Assembly: GCA_026400795.1 (NCBI GenBank)
Contig: JAPLOJ010000126.1
Coordinates: 1-33,565 of the forward strand
DNA from: Alphaproteobacteria bacterium
GTDB taxonomy: Bacteria; Pseudomonadota; Alphaproteobacteria; Acetobacterales; Acetobacteraceae
Reading direction: 5' to 3'
Length of the DNA: 33,565 nt
Made by a program: the position numbers and the translations under genes. The notes under the pieces are model-generated. The model ran no database searches. It was not told where the DNA came from and was given only the letters and a program-made list of their open reading frames with translations. Of the stretch, positions 22,237 to 27,031 are shown piece by piece (position 1 is the stretch's first letter; each line of letters opens with the position of its first letter).

Positions 22237-23670
22237 TCAGGCCTGCGCGGCCGGCACGGCGATGAAGGCCGGCTTGCCATCACGCATGATGCGCACCGCA
22301 ACCGCACCGCCCGCGGCATTCGCCTCACGCAACGCACGCAGCACGGCTTCAGCATCATCGGTCGCCGCCGCGCCGACACCCACAATCACATCGCCACGGC
22401 GCAAGCCGGCTTCCTGGGCGCGTGAATTCGGCTCCACGGCCTGCACCAGCGCACCCTTCGCATCATTGGGCAGGCGGAGTGATGCACGCGCTTCCGGCGT
22501 GATCGGCGCGAGCGAAACACCAATACGCGGCGCGTTGGATTGTTCCGCACCCGCGCGGGCACGTTCCGTACCAGGCTGAGCAGCGATATCCACACGCAGA
22601 CTGGCTTCCGCACCATCGCGCCAGAGCTTCAGATCAGCCTTCGCACCGGGGCGGAGATCCGCCACGCTGCGCGCCAGGTCACGCGGGTTGCGCACGGCCT
22701 TGCCATCCAGCGCCGTCACCACATCGCCGGGCTTGAGGCCAGCCTTGGCGGCGGGGCTGTCATTTTCCACACCTGCCACAAGGGCACCCTGCGGGGCTTC
22801 AGCGCCCTTGGCCGGCAACTTCAACGCCGCCGCCATGGCCGCATTCACGGGCTGGGTCGAAACGCCAAGGAAGCCGCGCTCCACTTGGCCTTTCTCACGC
22901 AGTTCCAACACAACGCGCTTCACCATGTTGGACGGCACGGCAAAGCCGATGCCAACCGAACCACCGGTCGGGCTGAAGATTGCCGTGTTCACGCCAATCA
23001 CGCCGCCATCGCGGGCGAAAAGCGGGCCGCCGGAATTGCCCTGATTGATAGACGCATCCACCTGGATGAAATCATCATAGGGGCCAGAGCCGATGTCCCG
23101 GCCAGTCGCGGAAACCACACCCGTGGTCACAGTGCCGGACAGGCCATAGGGATTGCCCATGGCCACCACCCAATCGCCGGGCTGGGCGCGATCAGAATCA
23201 CCCAGGGCCACGAAGGGTAGCGGCGCGCCGGCTTCAATCTTTAGCAGCGCGACATCGGTGCGCGCATCGCGGCCAACCACGCGGGCCTGTAATTCACGGC
23301 CGTCTTCAAGCTTTACGATGATGCGGTTGGCGCCTTCCACAACATGGTTATTGGTCACGATGAAGCCGGCGGCATCAATCACGAAGCCCGAACCCGTGCC
23401 CTGCACGCGGCCTTGGCCGGGGTTGGGCATGCCCATTTCCGCGCGTGGCGCCTTGCCGGCGACATTGATGGTGACAACGGCGGGACGCACGGCCTTCACC
23501 AACTCGGCAAAGCCGGCAGCGGGTGCGGCGCGGTCAAGCGTGATGGCCGGGGCAACAGGCGCCGGGGCATTTTGTGCGTGCACGGCAAGGCCGGTCAGCG
23601 CGGTTGAACCAAGCAAAAGGCCGAGCAGCGCATAGCGCGCAGTACGGCGGGCGGGGCTGGAAGTAGCCAT
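22237..23670 (-). CDS. degQ: DegQ/Do family periplasmic serine protease
   Basis: A 477-residue HtrA-type quality-control protease of the periplasm. A signal peptide (cleavage near VHA-Q, residue 32) is followed by a trypsin-like domain with the full triad: His109 (TNNHVV), Asp139 (RTDVALL) and Ser213 (GNSGGPL). Two PDZ domains follow (about 265-370 and 385-475; RGFLGVS and PRIGVSLAP starts, GLKPGDVV and GLRRGDVI loops). The N-terminal loop before GTGSGFV is very short, lacking the long FF-containing LA loop of DegP, which favours a DegQ-like call. It lies downstream of a response regulator and sensor kinase on the same strand, suggesting envelope-stress control. Its start is preceded by a leader that can hide the ribosome-binding site. 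Confidence 0.92.
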   Translation of the reverse strand: MATSSPARRTARYALLGLLLGSTALTGLAVHAQNAPAPVAPAITLDRAAPAAGFAELVKAVRPAVVTINVAGKAPRAEMGMPNPGQGRVQGTGSGFVIDAAGFIVTNNHVVEGANRIIVKLEDGRELQARVVGRDARTDVALLKIEAGAPLPFVALGDSDRAQPGDWVVAMGNPYGLSGTVTTGVVSATGRDIGSGPYDDFIQVDASINQGNSGGPLFARDGGVIGVNTAIFSPTGGSVGIGFAVPSNMVKRVVLELREKGQVERGFLGVSTQPVNAAMAAALKLPAKGAEAPQGALVAGVENDSPAAKAGLKPGDVVTALDGKAVRNPRDLARSVADLRPGAKADLKLWRDGAEASLRVDIAAQPGTERARAGAEQSNAPRIGVSLAPITPEARASLRLPNDAKGALVQAVEPNSRAQEAGLRRGDVIVGVGAAATDDAEAVLRALREANAAGGAVAVRIMRDGKPAFIAVPAAQA

Positions 23671-23675
23671 GAGTT

Positions 23676-23740
23676 GTTTTCTCCATCAAAAGGGCAGGGC
23701 GCTGATTCGCTTTCGCCTTGATTGCGAAAATGGAGAAAAC
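23676..23740 (-). promoter_or_regulatory. degQ leader helix sequestering the Shine-Dalgarno
   Basis: On the minus strand GTTTTCTCCAT (23740-23730) and ATGGAGAAAAC (23686-23676) are perfect 11-bp complements. The second arm contains the degQ ribosome-binding site GGAG, about 10 bases before the ATG. Between them TTTCGC and GCGAAA (23729-23724, 23716-23711) form an inner 6-bp hairpin with a 7-nt loop. Seven of the eleven outer pairs are A-U, so the helix could melt with heat. It works only if transcripts start upstream of 23740, for example by read-through from the kinase gene. Confidence 0.6.
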
Positions 23741-23765: not shown

Positions 23766-23781
23766 CTGAAATGATTTTCAG
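23766..23781. promoter_or_regulatory. short palindrome upstream of degQ (possible operator)
   Basis: CTGAAATGATTTTCAG is a perfect 6-bp inverted repeat around a 4-base centre, just downstream of the kinase stop. A weak promoter (TTTCAG, 17 bases, TACAGC on the minus strand) overlaps it. The position suits a regulator site for degQ; binding by the neighbouring response regulator is only a guess. Confidence 0.35.
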
Positions 23782-23792
23782 GATTGGGCCTG

Positions 23793-25145
23793 TCAGCTTT
23801 CGGCCTTTGCGCCGGAAAGATCCACCGTCACGCAAAGCCCTGGCGCCGCGTCTGACAATACCGGCGCCGCGCCATGAAGCTTCGCCACCGCCGTCACCAA
23901 AGCCAGGCCAAGCCCGCTGCCCGGTGTGCCCCGGCTACGGTCTAGCCGATAAAAGCGGCGCAGCACGCGCGCGCGTTCTTCGGCCGGTACGCCTGGCCCA
24001 TCATCGGCCACTTCAAGCACCGGGCCAGCGCGCAGCGCCACGCGCACGGCTTGCCCGCCATGGGTCAGGGCATTGTCTATCAGATTGGCCAGCATCTGGC
24101 GCAGCAGCGCGGCATCGCCATGCAGGCGCTGGTCGGGTGCCACCTGCACCTCAAGCCGCTTGCCGGCTTCTTCCGCGACAACCGCGTAAGCCTCGGCGAG
24201 TGTTGTCACCAGCGCGGAAAGCTCCACCACCGGCGCTTCCTGCGGCGGCAGCGGCGGGCCGGCTTCAAGCTGCGCGATGCGGAGCAGCCCAGTGAAGGTG
24301 GCAAGGACCGTATCCAATTCGGTAAGCGCAGCTTCAAAAGCTGCGCCATCGGCAGTTGGATCGCGCGCGCGCGCAAGGGCGGCTTCCAGCTTTTGGCGCA
24401 GGCGTGAAAGCGGCCCGCGCAAATCATGCGCGACATCCACCGTGACTTGTCGCATGCCTTCGATCAGCGCTTCCTGCCGTTCGAGCAGCGTGTTCACCGT
24501 GCCCGCCAACCGGTCGAATTCATCAGCGCTGCCGGCCAAGGGCAGACGGCGTGCGAGGTCTCCATGCATCACCTGTTCAGCGGCTTCGGAGACACGCCTG
24601 AGGCGATTTTGTAACCCGCGCGCCATGAACAAGCCGAAAGCGAGCGCAAGCAATACGGCGATTGCGCCCGCCGCGAGCAGCGTGGTGGCGAGGGTTGAAG
24701 CTGTATCCAGCACCGCGCCAAATTCGGCCGCGACCAGCAAGGTGAAGCCAGTGGCAACACCAATGCCCAACGTGCGCACCGGCCCTTCTGGCGCCCTGAG
24801 CGTCACAAAACCGCGCAAGCCCATCGGCGCGCCGGAAAGTCGCGCAGACCCGGCAAGGGGGCGCCCATCCGGCAAGCGCAACTGCACCAGAATGGCGCTT
24901 GGTGTGCGGTCCCGCGTGCGCGCTTCCACCGCGCGCGTCAGGCCAATCATGCCGAAGCGCTGGAATTCGCCGAGCAATAATTCGGCCTCCGCGCGGATGG
25001 TGCTGTCCAAAGCTTCTTCCAAAGCTTGCGAGCTACGCAGCCACCCAAGCCCAAGGCCAAGCGCGGAAATGCCCAAGACACCAAAGGCGGTTAGCAGCGC
25101 CGTGCGCAGCGCAAAACTACGCAGCAGCCTGCCAATAGTGCTCAC
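23793..25145 (-). CDS. two-component sensor histidine kinase
   Basis: A 450-residue inner-membrane kinase. It has TM1 at about 13-35, a periplasmic sensor section (about 36-150), TM2 at about 152-174, and a HAMP domain (about 175-230). The dimerisation domain has the phospho-acceptor His240 in VAHDLRGPLSRLR. The ATPase domain has the N box (LANLIDNALTHGG), G1 (VADDGPGVP), F (RFYRL) and G2 (GSGLGLALV). All catalytic boxes are intact. Its start overlaps the response-regulator stop by 4 bases (ATGA). With the regulator upstream and degQ downstream, an envelope or periplasmic stress signal is likely; the ligand is unknown. Confidence 0.93.
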   Translation of the reverse strand: MSTIGRLLRSFALRTALLTAFGVLGISALGLGLGWLRSSQALEEALDSTIRAEAELLLGEFQRFGMIGLTRAVEARTRDRTPSAILVQLRLPDGRPLAGSARLSGAPMGLRGFVTLRAPEGPVRTLGIGVATGFTLLVAAEFGAVLDTASTLATTLLAAGAIAVLLALAFGLFMARGLQNRLRRVSEAAEQVMHGDLARRLPLAGSADEFDRLAGTVNTLLERQEALIEGMRQVTVDVAHDLRGPLSRLRQKLEAALARARDPTADGAAFEAALTELDTVLATFTGLLRIAQLEAGPPLPPQEAPVVELSALVTTLAEAYAVVAEEAGKRLEVQVAPDQRLHGDAALLRQMLANLIDNALTHGGQAVRVALRAGPVLEVADDGPGVPAEERARVLRRFYRLDRSRGTPGSGLGLALVTAVAKLHGAAPVLSDAAPGLCVTVDLSGAKAES

Positions 25146-25819
25146 TTCGGCGCACCGAGCATATAGCCAACACCACGCATGGTCTGAATGGGCGCGGGCG
25201 ATCCATCCTGAGACAGCTTGCGTCGCAATCGGCTGACATGCACTTCAACAAGGTTGGTGGAGGGATCGAAGTTCAAATCCCAGACCCCTTCCAGCAGCAT
25301 GGTCTTGGTCAGCACCTGATCGGGGCGGCGCAGCATGAATTCCAGCAGGCGCATTTCAGTCGGCAGCAATTCTACCGGCTGGCCATTGCGCCGCACCACG
25401 CGCTTCAGCAGGTCCAATTCAATATCGCCCACCTGCAGCAGCACGGGGTCGGTGGCGGGCGCTGGGCGCCGCGCGAGTGCCGCGATACGCGCGCGGAGTT
25501 CACTGAAGGCGAAGGGCTTTGCCAAGTAGTCATCCGCGCCGGCATCAAGGCCTTCCACGCGCCGCTCCACCTCACCAAGTGCGGTCAGCACCAGCACGGG
25601 GGTGGTGATGCTGGAAGCGCGCAAGGTGCGCAGAATAGTGAGGCCATCAGGCCCCGGCAGCATGCGATCGGTGACGATCACATCCCAGGCCTCACCAGCG
25701 GCGAGCAGCATGCCATCTCGCCCGGTGCGCGCCACCTGCACGACATGGCCGATTTCCTGCAGACCCTTGGCGATGTAATCGGCGGTCGCTCTATCGTCTT
25801 CGATCAGCAGGATGCGCAT
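25142..25819 (-). CDS. OmpR/PhoB-type response regulator
   Basis: A 225-residue regulator. The receiver domain (1-115) has the acidic pair EDD at 8-9, phospho-acceptor Asp51 (VIVTDRMLP), the TA switch region (VLVLTAL) and Lys101 (LAKPF). The C-terminal winged-helix DNA-binding domain (about 128-222) has LLPTEMRLLEFML and VEVHVSRLRRKL. It is translationally coupled to the kinase by a 4-base overlap and starts 12 bp after the M20 peptidase stop, so these genes form one minus-strand operon. Likely targets are degQ and perhaps its own operon, inferred only from position. Confidence 0.95.
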   Translation of the reverse strand: MRILLIEDDRATADYIAKGLQEIGHVVQVARTGRDGMLLAAGEAWDVIVTDRMLPGPDGLTILRTLRASSITTPVLVLTALGEVERRVEGLDAGADDYLAKPFAFSELRARIAALARRPAPATDPVLLQVGDIELDLLKRVVRRNGQPVELLPTEMRLLEFMLRRPDQVLTKTMLLEGVWDLNFDPSTNLVEVHVSRLRRKLSQDGSPAPIQTMRGVGYMLGAPK

Positions 25820-25831
25820 GGGGCGCGGATA

Positions 25832-27031
25832 TTACTCCAGCGTCGCAATGGCAACCGCCAGGCGGCAGCCTTGGGCAAATTCCGGAATAACCACATATTC
25901 ATTGACCGTGTGGATTTCAGCCTGACCGGCGCCGAAGGTCACGGTCGGCACACCATGCTTCACCAGCCAATTCGCATCAAGCCCGCCTGCGGAGACCATG
26001 GTGACGGGTTCAAGCCCCATGGCTTGCGCAGCCTTCTTGGCGCGCTGCACGGCGGGGTCATCTTCCGACATCAGGAAGGGCGGATAGGCGGTGCGGGATT
26101 GGAAACTCACCTCCGCCATGTTGCCATCGGCATCCTTCACCTCGGCCTTCGCCTTGTTGAAGGCGGCTTCAAAGGCTTCAGTGATCTTGACGGCAAAGGC
26201 AGCATCCGTGCTGCGCGCTTCACCAACCAGATGCACGTAATCCGTCACGACATTGGTGGCATCGCCGGCGGGCTTGCCATCCTTGCCGCCGAAGATACCA
26301 ATATTGGAGGAGCCTTTGCCCTCCGGCTGCACCACCTTGCCGAACCAGCCGGCACGATGCGCTTCCGTGAGCCCGACGGATGCCACCAGGGTTGAGGAAA
26401 TGCCGCGTTCCGGCGCAACCCCGGCATGGGCGGCCTTGCCCTTGATGGTGACTTCCCAATTCTGCTGGCCAACCGCGCCGATGGTCAGCAAGGCAGCATG
26501 GGTGCTGTCCACATTGAAGCCCATGGTGGCACCGCCAAGGTCCTTCGGGTCAAGTTCCCGCGCGCCATGCAGGCCGCTTTCTTCGCGCACGGTGAACAGC
26601 ATGGTGATCGGCGGATGCGGCAGCTTGTGATCAATCAGGGTTTTTGCCAGCGCGATCAGCACCGCGCAGCCTGTGCCATTATCCCCACCCAAAGCCGTGG
26701 TGCCATCAGACACGATGCGATCCCCCTCGCGCCGCGGCTTCGCGCCCTTACACAGCGGCACTGTATCCATATGCGTGGAGAATAACAGCCGCGGGCCGGG
26801 CTTTGTGCCCGGCAGGTCAACGATCAGATTGCCCACTTCGGTCGGCAGCTTGATGCGTTGGTGGACCGTATCGTAGCGGATCGCGCTTGTTGGCACGCCA
26901 ACCTTCTTCAACTCATCCACAATGGCAGCGCCGATGGCGGCTTCAAACCCCGTTACGCTGTCAATCGCGAGCAAGCGGATCAGCATGTCTGTCGCGTAAT
27001 CAACATCAACAATCTTGGCGGTGCTGTTCAT
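25832..27031 (-). CDS. M20 family metallopeptidase, PepT-like
   Basis: A 399-residue cytoplasmic zinc aminopeptidase or hydrolase of the M20 family, nearest by eye to the PepT/tripeptidase group. Seen motifs are STHMDTVPL (ligand His87, Asp89), LGGDNGTG (bridging Asp117), TVREESGLHG (catalytic and ligand Glu 150-151), NVDST (ligand Asp) and AEIHTVNEY (C-terminal ligand His). A dimerisation lid domain occupies about 185-300 (KGKAAHAGVAPERG). It is between marC (36 bp upstream) and the response regulator (12 bp downstream). The exact peptide substrate is unknown; a link to recycling peptides from periplasmic proteolysis would fit the DegQ context but is inference. Confidence 0.9.
   Translation of the reverse strand: MNSTAKIVDVDYATDMLIRLLAIDSVTGFEAAIGAAIVDELKKVGVPTSAIRYDTVHQRIKLPTEVGNLIVDLPGTKPGPRLLFSTHMDTVPLCKGAKPRREGDRIVSDGTTALGGDNGTGCAVLIALAKTLIDHKLPHPPITMLFTVREESGLHGARELDPKDLGGATMGFNVDSTHAALLTIGAVGQQNWEVTIKGKAAHAGVAPERGISSTLVASVGLTEAHRAGWFGKVVQPEGKGSSNIGIFGGKDGKPAGDATNVVTDYVHLVGEARSTDAAFAVKITEAFEAAFNKAKAEVKDADGNMAEVSFQSRTAYPPFLMSEDDPAVQRAKKAAQAMGLEPVTMVSAGGLDANWLVKHGVPTVTFGAGQAEIHTVNEYVVIPEFAQGCRLAVAIATLE

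Follow-up and report, generated by a model that had tools for sequence, protein, structure and literature searches.

A possible read-through lock on degQ translation, embedded in its predicted promoter, in a Roseomonas-like genome

We analysed a 33,565-nt stretch of DNA (contig JAPLOJ010000126.1, assembly GCA_026400795.1; here called the window) in which the Shine-Dalgarno (SD) sequence of degQ, on the minus strand, lies in one arm of a perfect inverted repeat. The explanation that we favour, with about as much doubt as confidence, is that the upstream arm of this repeat (arm 1) is a part of the degQ promoter, the SD being open in the gene's own mRNA and locked only in RNA that reads through from upstream. 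In this model a promoter that Acetobacteraceae have conserved 3ʹ of the histidine kinase gene would run through arm 1, which would take up its spacer and the first three bases of its -10 box. Transcription would start near 23720, 3ʹ of arm 1, and give a degQ mRNA with a 5ʹ UTR of about 50 nt and an open SD; since the -10 box lies on the end of arm 1, a message from about 23720 would lack this arm. Read-through RNA from the peptidase, regulator and kinase genes would be the sole carrier of both arms, and the 11-bp helix formed in it would close the ribosome-binding site over the whole ordinary temperature range. In effect, DegQ would be translated solely from transcripts of its own promoter, which is probably under two-component control.

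The arms, the promoter-like elements, the energies and the gene ranks used below were computed, and the transcription start, the control by the regulator, the read-through RNA and a selection for the lock are what we infer. On a more tentative footing, we propose that an envelope-stress protease gene may here carry a read-through lock in its own promoter, with the spacer strand doubling as an anti-SD. If this is right, one DNA segment would serve as a promoter and, only in transcripts that enter from outside, as a lock on translation, and this would replace the heat-sensor story of an earlier note on this locus.

The degQ locus and its inverted repeat

The closest named relatives of the window are mostly Roseomonas sp. 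MAGs (Acetobacteraceae), and the window represents a Roseomonas-like metagenome assembly. The gene order on the minus strand is M20 peptidase, OmpR-family regulator, histidine kinase and Do-family protease. The last of these, degQ (22237-23670), encodes a serine protease with two PDZ domains; its product scored 444.3 bits against TIGR02037 (cut-off 416.2) and matched Trypsin_2 and two PDZ stretches, which places it in the Do family (DegP/DegQ/HtrA), and it scored below the cut-offs of the DegQ and DegP equivalog models. Directly 5ʹ of degQ lies the gene of a sensor histidine kinase (23793-25145, minus strand) with HAMP and HATPase_c matches. No HisKA model matched this kinase at E 0.001, and it carries an H-box-like VAHDLRGPLSRL. 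The kinase gene is overlapped by that of an OmpR-family response regulator (25142-25819, minus strand; Response_reg and Trans_reg_C), and 12 bp further 5ʹ is the gene of a PepT-like M20 peptidase (25832-27031, minus strand), the possible head of read-through transcripts. The order of kinase and degQ was retained in most of the nearest kinase orthologues, and the stretch from the kinase stop to degQ showed nothing resembling a terminator.

In 13 species of the genus, DegQ was 93-96% identical and was preceded by the same upstream region. The window (at 23781-23795) and the genomes G015 and G013 have some 10 additional bases (CTGACAGGCCCAATC), which bring the kinase stop forward, and in the other relatives the kinase stop is the TGA of the palindrome described below. 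The small-genome members G002, G008, G009, G025, G027 and G029 were without a close DegQ orthologue and without the leader block; their best DegQ homologues were about 50% identical, and this pattern suggests loss of the degQ gene. One contig titled Asaia bogorensis (L064, CAMCZJ010000215.1) encodes a DegQ that is 94% identical to that of the Roseomonas-like clade, and it is probably a misnamed MAG.

Arm 1, GTTTTCTCCAT (23740-23730, minus strand), falls in the spacer and reaches three bases into the predicted -10 box, and it lies 5ʹ of the predicted start. It is perfectly complementary to the downstream arm, ATGGAGAAAAC (23686-23676, minus strand), which includes the SD GGAG (23684-23681). The earlier note had described this 11-bp helix with the GGAG of degQ in its stem, and both arms were found exactly as described. 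Among the 261 genes with an SD that we surveyed in the window and in 400 kb of the sister genome G020, the longest perfect SD-containing helix reached 11 bp for degQ only, once per genome; the runner-up had 8 bp, and 5220 composition-shuffled leaders gave no helix of 11 bp. The helix is therefore real and, for a single gene, far from what chance would produce. Taken as a whole, the 111-nt leader had an unremarkable folding energy (z = 0.26), the SD-containing helix being its unusual part. The helix survey, the shuffles and the opening costs given below bear out that an RNA with both arms would hide the SD of degQ, strongly and unusually so. The inner TTTCGC/GCGAAA hairpin, also named in the note, is present in the window, but it does not hold in the relatives: in 5 of 13, CAG/CAGG or GGC stands in place of its 5ʹ half.

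Within the clade, the core UUUCUCCAU/AUGGAGAAA was retained in most of the 13 species and was shortened in G026. The downstream arm had appeared unpaired in several relatives, which turned out to be an alignment artefact, the right register keeping a 9-bp core in most of them. Base 2 of arm 1 drifts to C, G or A and is unpaired without compensation in 8 of 13 species, and beside this freely varying base the paired stretch TTTCTCCAT is invariant. The distance between the arms varies by indels, and the invariant block extends far 5ʹ of arm 1. We checked the 13 orthologues for the compensatory changes in the two arms that the earlier note had named as a test, and found none among the 11 pairs of the outer helix; the inner helix had one pair, in one sequence, with both partners changed. 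The degQ leader thus did not show the compensatory base changes by which an RNA family is recognised. With RNAalifold, the leader alignment folded far better than its column-shuffled versions (0 of 300), and we discarded this signal as evidence of structure because it came from invariant columns, with pair counts that gave no covariation support. A covariance model found the element only within the clade, with weak partial matches elsewhere and no homologue outside the clade. Fragments of the block recurring elsewhere in the genus lay inside coding genes and were attributed to chance. As the outer pairs lack two-sided changes, the fold signal stems from invariant columns and the element is confined to the clade, conservation alone would give no argument for RNA structure.

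A conserved promoter-like layout behind the kinase gene

We searched the family with the kinase protein and compared, for the nearest orthologues, the DNA between the kinase gene and degQ. Of 32 such regions, 31 had one layout with fixed spacing; they come from about 11 Acetobacteraceae genera and, being related within genera, are phylogenetically non-independent. The first element of the layout, TGA-N8-TCA, is often a perfect palindrome; YYTNCA (mostly CCTCCA) stands 16 or 17 nt behind it, and SANNNT follows at a constant 12 nt. TGA-N8-TCA and YYTNCA had been spotted by eye as anchors before they were tested, the last element was left free in the search pattern, and the degQ start codons of the family were chosen by rule. 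In this last element, the second place was A and the first was C or G in 31/31 regions and the sixth was T in 23/31; an A was enriched 11 nt after the invariant A (17/31). Because of the invariant A and the A enriched 11 nt on, the element can be read as a -10 box, with A at -11, followed by a start nucleotide.

In the window the first element is the palindrome TGAAAATCATTTCA (23780-23767, minus strand), a perfect TGAAA-N4-TTTCA that is invariant in the 13 orthologues and is a probable operator. Between genera it covaries (TGAAA/TTTCA, TGACA/TGTCA, TGACG/CGTCA) at the same position in the 31 regions. In the 31 family loci (L189-L225) the palindrome usually overlaps the kinase stop, its TGA being the stop codon. 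TTTACA (23750-23745, minus strand), 16 nt 3ʹ of the palindrome, is the equivalent of the family YYTNCA, the anchor in 31/32 regions, and another 12 nt on lies the predicted -10 box CATTTT (23732-23727, minus strand), identical throughout the 13 species of the clade. In G225 and G411, the next relatives, the box reads CATTCT and CTCTCGCCATTCT is kept, with the pairing there lost but the box preserved, and the arm-1 region is conserved beyond pairing.

Counted 11 nt from the invariant A taken as -11, the predicted start falls at about 23720 (23718-23723, minus strand). The predicted 5ʹ UTR begins with CAAGGCGAAAGCGAATCAGCGCC (23698-23720, minus strand), which holds a small hairpin whose halves GGCG and CGCC are invariant in the 13 species; as a whole this stretch directly 3ʹ of the predicted start, CAAGGCGAARGCGAATCAGCGCC (23698-23720), is nearly invariant among them. 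The reading of the earlier note needs both arms in the degQ mRNA, and the note had named a start below 23735 as fatal to it. Such a start is now predicted from the family-wide conserved promoter, and it would exclude arm 1 from the message.

The strict promoter pattern matched the genome of the window once, 5ʹ of degQ, so that this pattern defined no regulon, and a sigma70 consensus scan found nothing. RpoH-type and plain TTTACA -35 readings, tried by hand, had no conserved partner box. The degQ promoter is probably controlled by the adjacent two-component system, and a conserved promoter for the kinase-degQ pair across Acetobacteraceae would make this control directly testable.

Accessibility of the SD in long and short RNAs

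The predicted cost of opening GGAG in the long leader at 37 °C was 5.4-13.7 kcal/mol across the relatives and 8.1 kcal/mol in the window; with the 5ʹ end of the RNA set at arm 1 it was 4.6-14.1 kcal/mol and, in the window, 12.4 kcal/mol. In most relatives the opening costs about 8-14 kcal/mol, and the SD was predicted to be hidden in all 13 species. The ibpA and ibpB leaders of E. coli are known thermometers, for which the same calculation gave 2.6-3.0 and 5.2-5.4 kcal/mol, respectively. In the long context, the predicted probability that the SD of the window is open was about 2e-6 at 37 °C and about 5e-5 at 50 °C.

For an mRNA beginning at the predicted start 23720, opening of the SD was predicted to cost 1.6 kcal/mol in the window, with a median of 1.0 over the 13 species, and for RNA entering from upstream the median of the 13 was 9.7 kcal/mol. 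By the difference between long and short RNA, degQ ranked first of 152 genes in the sister genome G020, the background genes being drawn from 400 kb samples, and in 13 of 13 species its contrast exceeded that of every other G020 gene, with at most one exception.

Two other genomes showed contrasts like those of the clade with other sequences. In G411 (L190) the SD helix is formed in another register, CATTCTCC/GGAGAGTG, with a 5ʹ arm made up of the -10 box and CC; in G021 (L220) an unrelated SD-hiding hairpin (CTCCTGT/ACAGGAG, with an inner GCGGCCC/GGGCCGC stem) lies 5ʹ of degQ. The same hairpin, with one pair broken, occurs in G022 (L221). A family-wide SD lock, suspected from G021, G425 and G448, was rejected after shuffle tests and background genes showed no general enrichment. 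The strong lock is restricted to the clade and a few relatives (G411, G021) and only 5 of 30 leaders stand out in the family, so that selection for the lock is a presumption.

Alternative explanations and known systems

Some complementarity arises anyway when a promoter strand rich in pyrimidines faces an SD rich in purines, and this counts against our preferred explanation. The promoter and the start could be the same and the SD complementarity merely a functionless by-product of a spacer and -10 box of this composition facing the ribosome-binding site, which we regard as unlikely, though deserving real weight. Such a by-product would agree with the outer helix, in which no pair changed on both sides in 13 species, with the uncompensated drift of arm-1 position 2 in 8/13 and with the lack of a family-wide lock. 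It does not easily account for an 11-bp perfect helix absent from all 5220 shuffled leaders, for TTTCTCCAT staying invariant beside a freely varying base, for a long-short contrast larger than that of any other among the 152 genes, or for the lock retained by G411 in another register. Alternatively, the promoter could be located further 5ʹ, so that both arms would belong to the leader and a signal other than heat (a small RNA, a protein, a ligand or upstream translation) would free the SD. The good folding of the alignment (0/300 column shuffles) and the SD hidden in all 13 species speak for this. We nevertheless find it improbable: the conserved -10-like box overlaps arm 1, the fold signal comes from invariant columns without covariation, no Rfam family matched the window at gathering thresholds, and the element had no homologue outside the clade.

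Two further explanations appear very improbable to us. The inverted repeat could be a DNA operator, made either of two half-sites of one protein or of phased response-regulator direct repeats that include arm 1. The stretches CATTTCAGC / CTTTACAGC / GTTTTCTCC do share a period-11 similarity that was reached in 2 of 500 shuffles, and repeats of this kind are bound by OmpR-family regulators (PMC9275681); however, the distance between the arms varies by indels, the SD accounts for the downstream arm, and the -10 box accounts for arm 1 better than an operator would. The other is the RNA thermosensor of the earlier note. Its appeal to heat control of HtrA-type proteases has a real precedent, the fourU thermometer of HtrA in Salmonella (PMC4166951, citing Klinkert 2012), and a U run does lie opposite the SD region of degQ. 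A thermometer requires an SD helix that melts in the physiological range, however, and in most orthologues this helix was predicted to be too stable for that; the opening costs in the window (12.4 kcal/mol from arm 1, 8.1 kcal/mol in the longer RNA) are about 3 to 9 kcal/mol above those of ibpA and ibpB. These predicted energies, together with the SD open at only about 5e-5 and thus effectively closed at 50 °C, make a degQ thermosensor unlikely, and the predicted start would leave arm 1 out of the message. For other loci, this suggests that upstream arms complementary to an SD should be checked against promoter conservation before they are called RNA thermometers.

With the fourU element of Salmonella htrA (PMC4166951), degQ shares an HtrA-type protease and a U-rich strand opposite the SD. 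In a fourU element four U residues pair with AGGA/GGAG, whereas here the partner of the U run is AAAA, beside the SD, and that of GGAG is CUCC; the degQ helix is also predicted to be too stable and its upstream strand to be untranscribed. The fourU model (RF01795) had no match in 20 relatives, and the controls were silent too. ROSE elements, found at alphaproteobacterial small heat-shock genes, likewise hide the SD at the 3ʹ end of the leader and occur in the same bacterial class, but the degQ helix has no non-canonical pairs around the SD and the gene is a protease. The ROSE model (RF00435) had no match in the window or in 59 relatives, a weak test, as the control genomes were silent as well.

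For the proposed operator, the nearest likeness is to alphaproteobacterial promoters under OmpR-family two-component systems, such as those of CenR (TGA-N8-TGA), which share the envelope-stress setting and the TGA-N8 spacing, and CenR-type sites at activated operons lie 5ʹ of the core promoter, as the degQ element does (PMC9275681). The CenR site is a direct repeat, whereas the degQ element is inverted (TGA-N8-TCA), and binding of a regulator to it is putative.

A narrow literature search returned no description of a read-through lock on a bacterial stress gene or on a chromosomal gene. The lock proposed here most resembles the leader of phage T4 gene e. That is a phage late gene with mapped starts and a measured 100-fold block (PMC3014915), whereas degQ is a chromosomal stress-protease gene with a predicted start and a predicted lock. 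In T4 gene e, and also in soc and I-TevI, the 5ʹ strand of the SD helix is encoded in the promoter region of the gene itself; translation occurs from promoter-proximal RNAs, and long RNAs started upstream remain silent (PMC3014915). The same overlap is predicted at degQ, where the predicted -10 box CATTTT overlaps arm 1.
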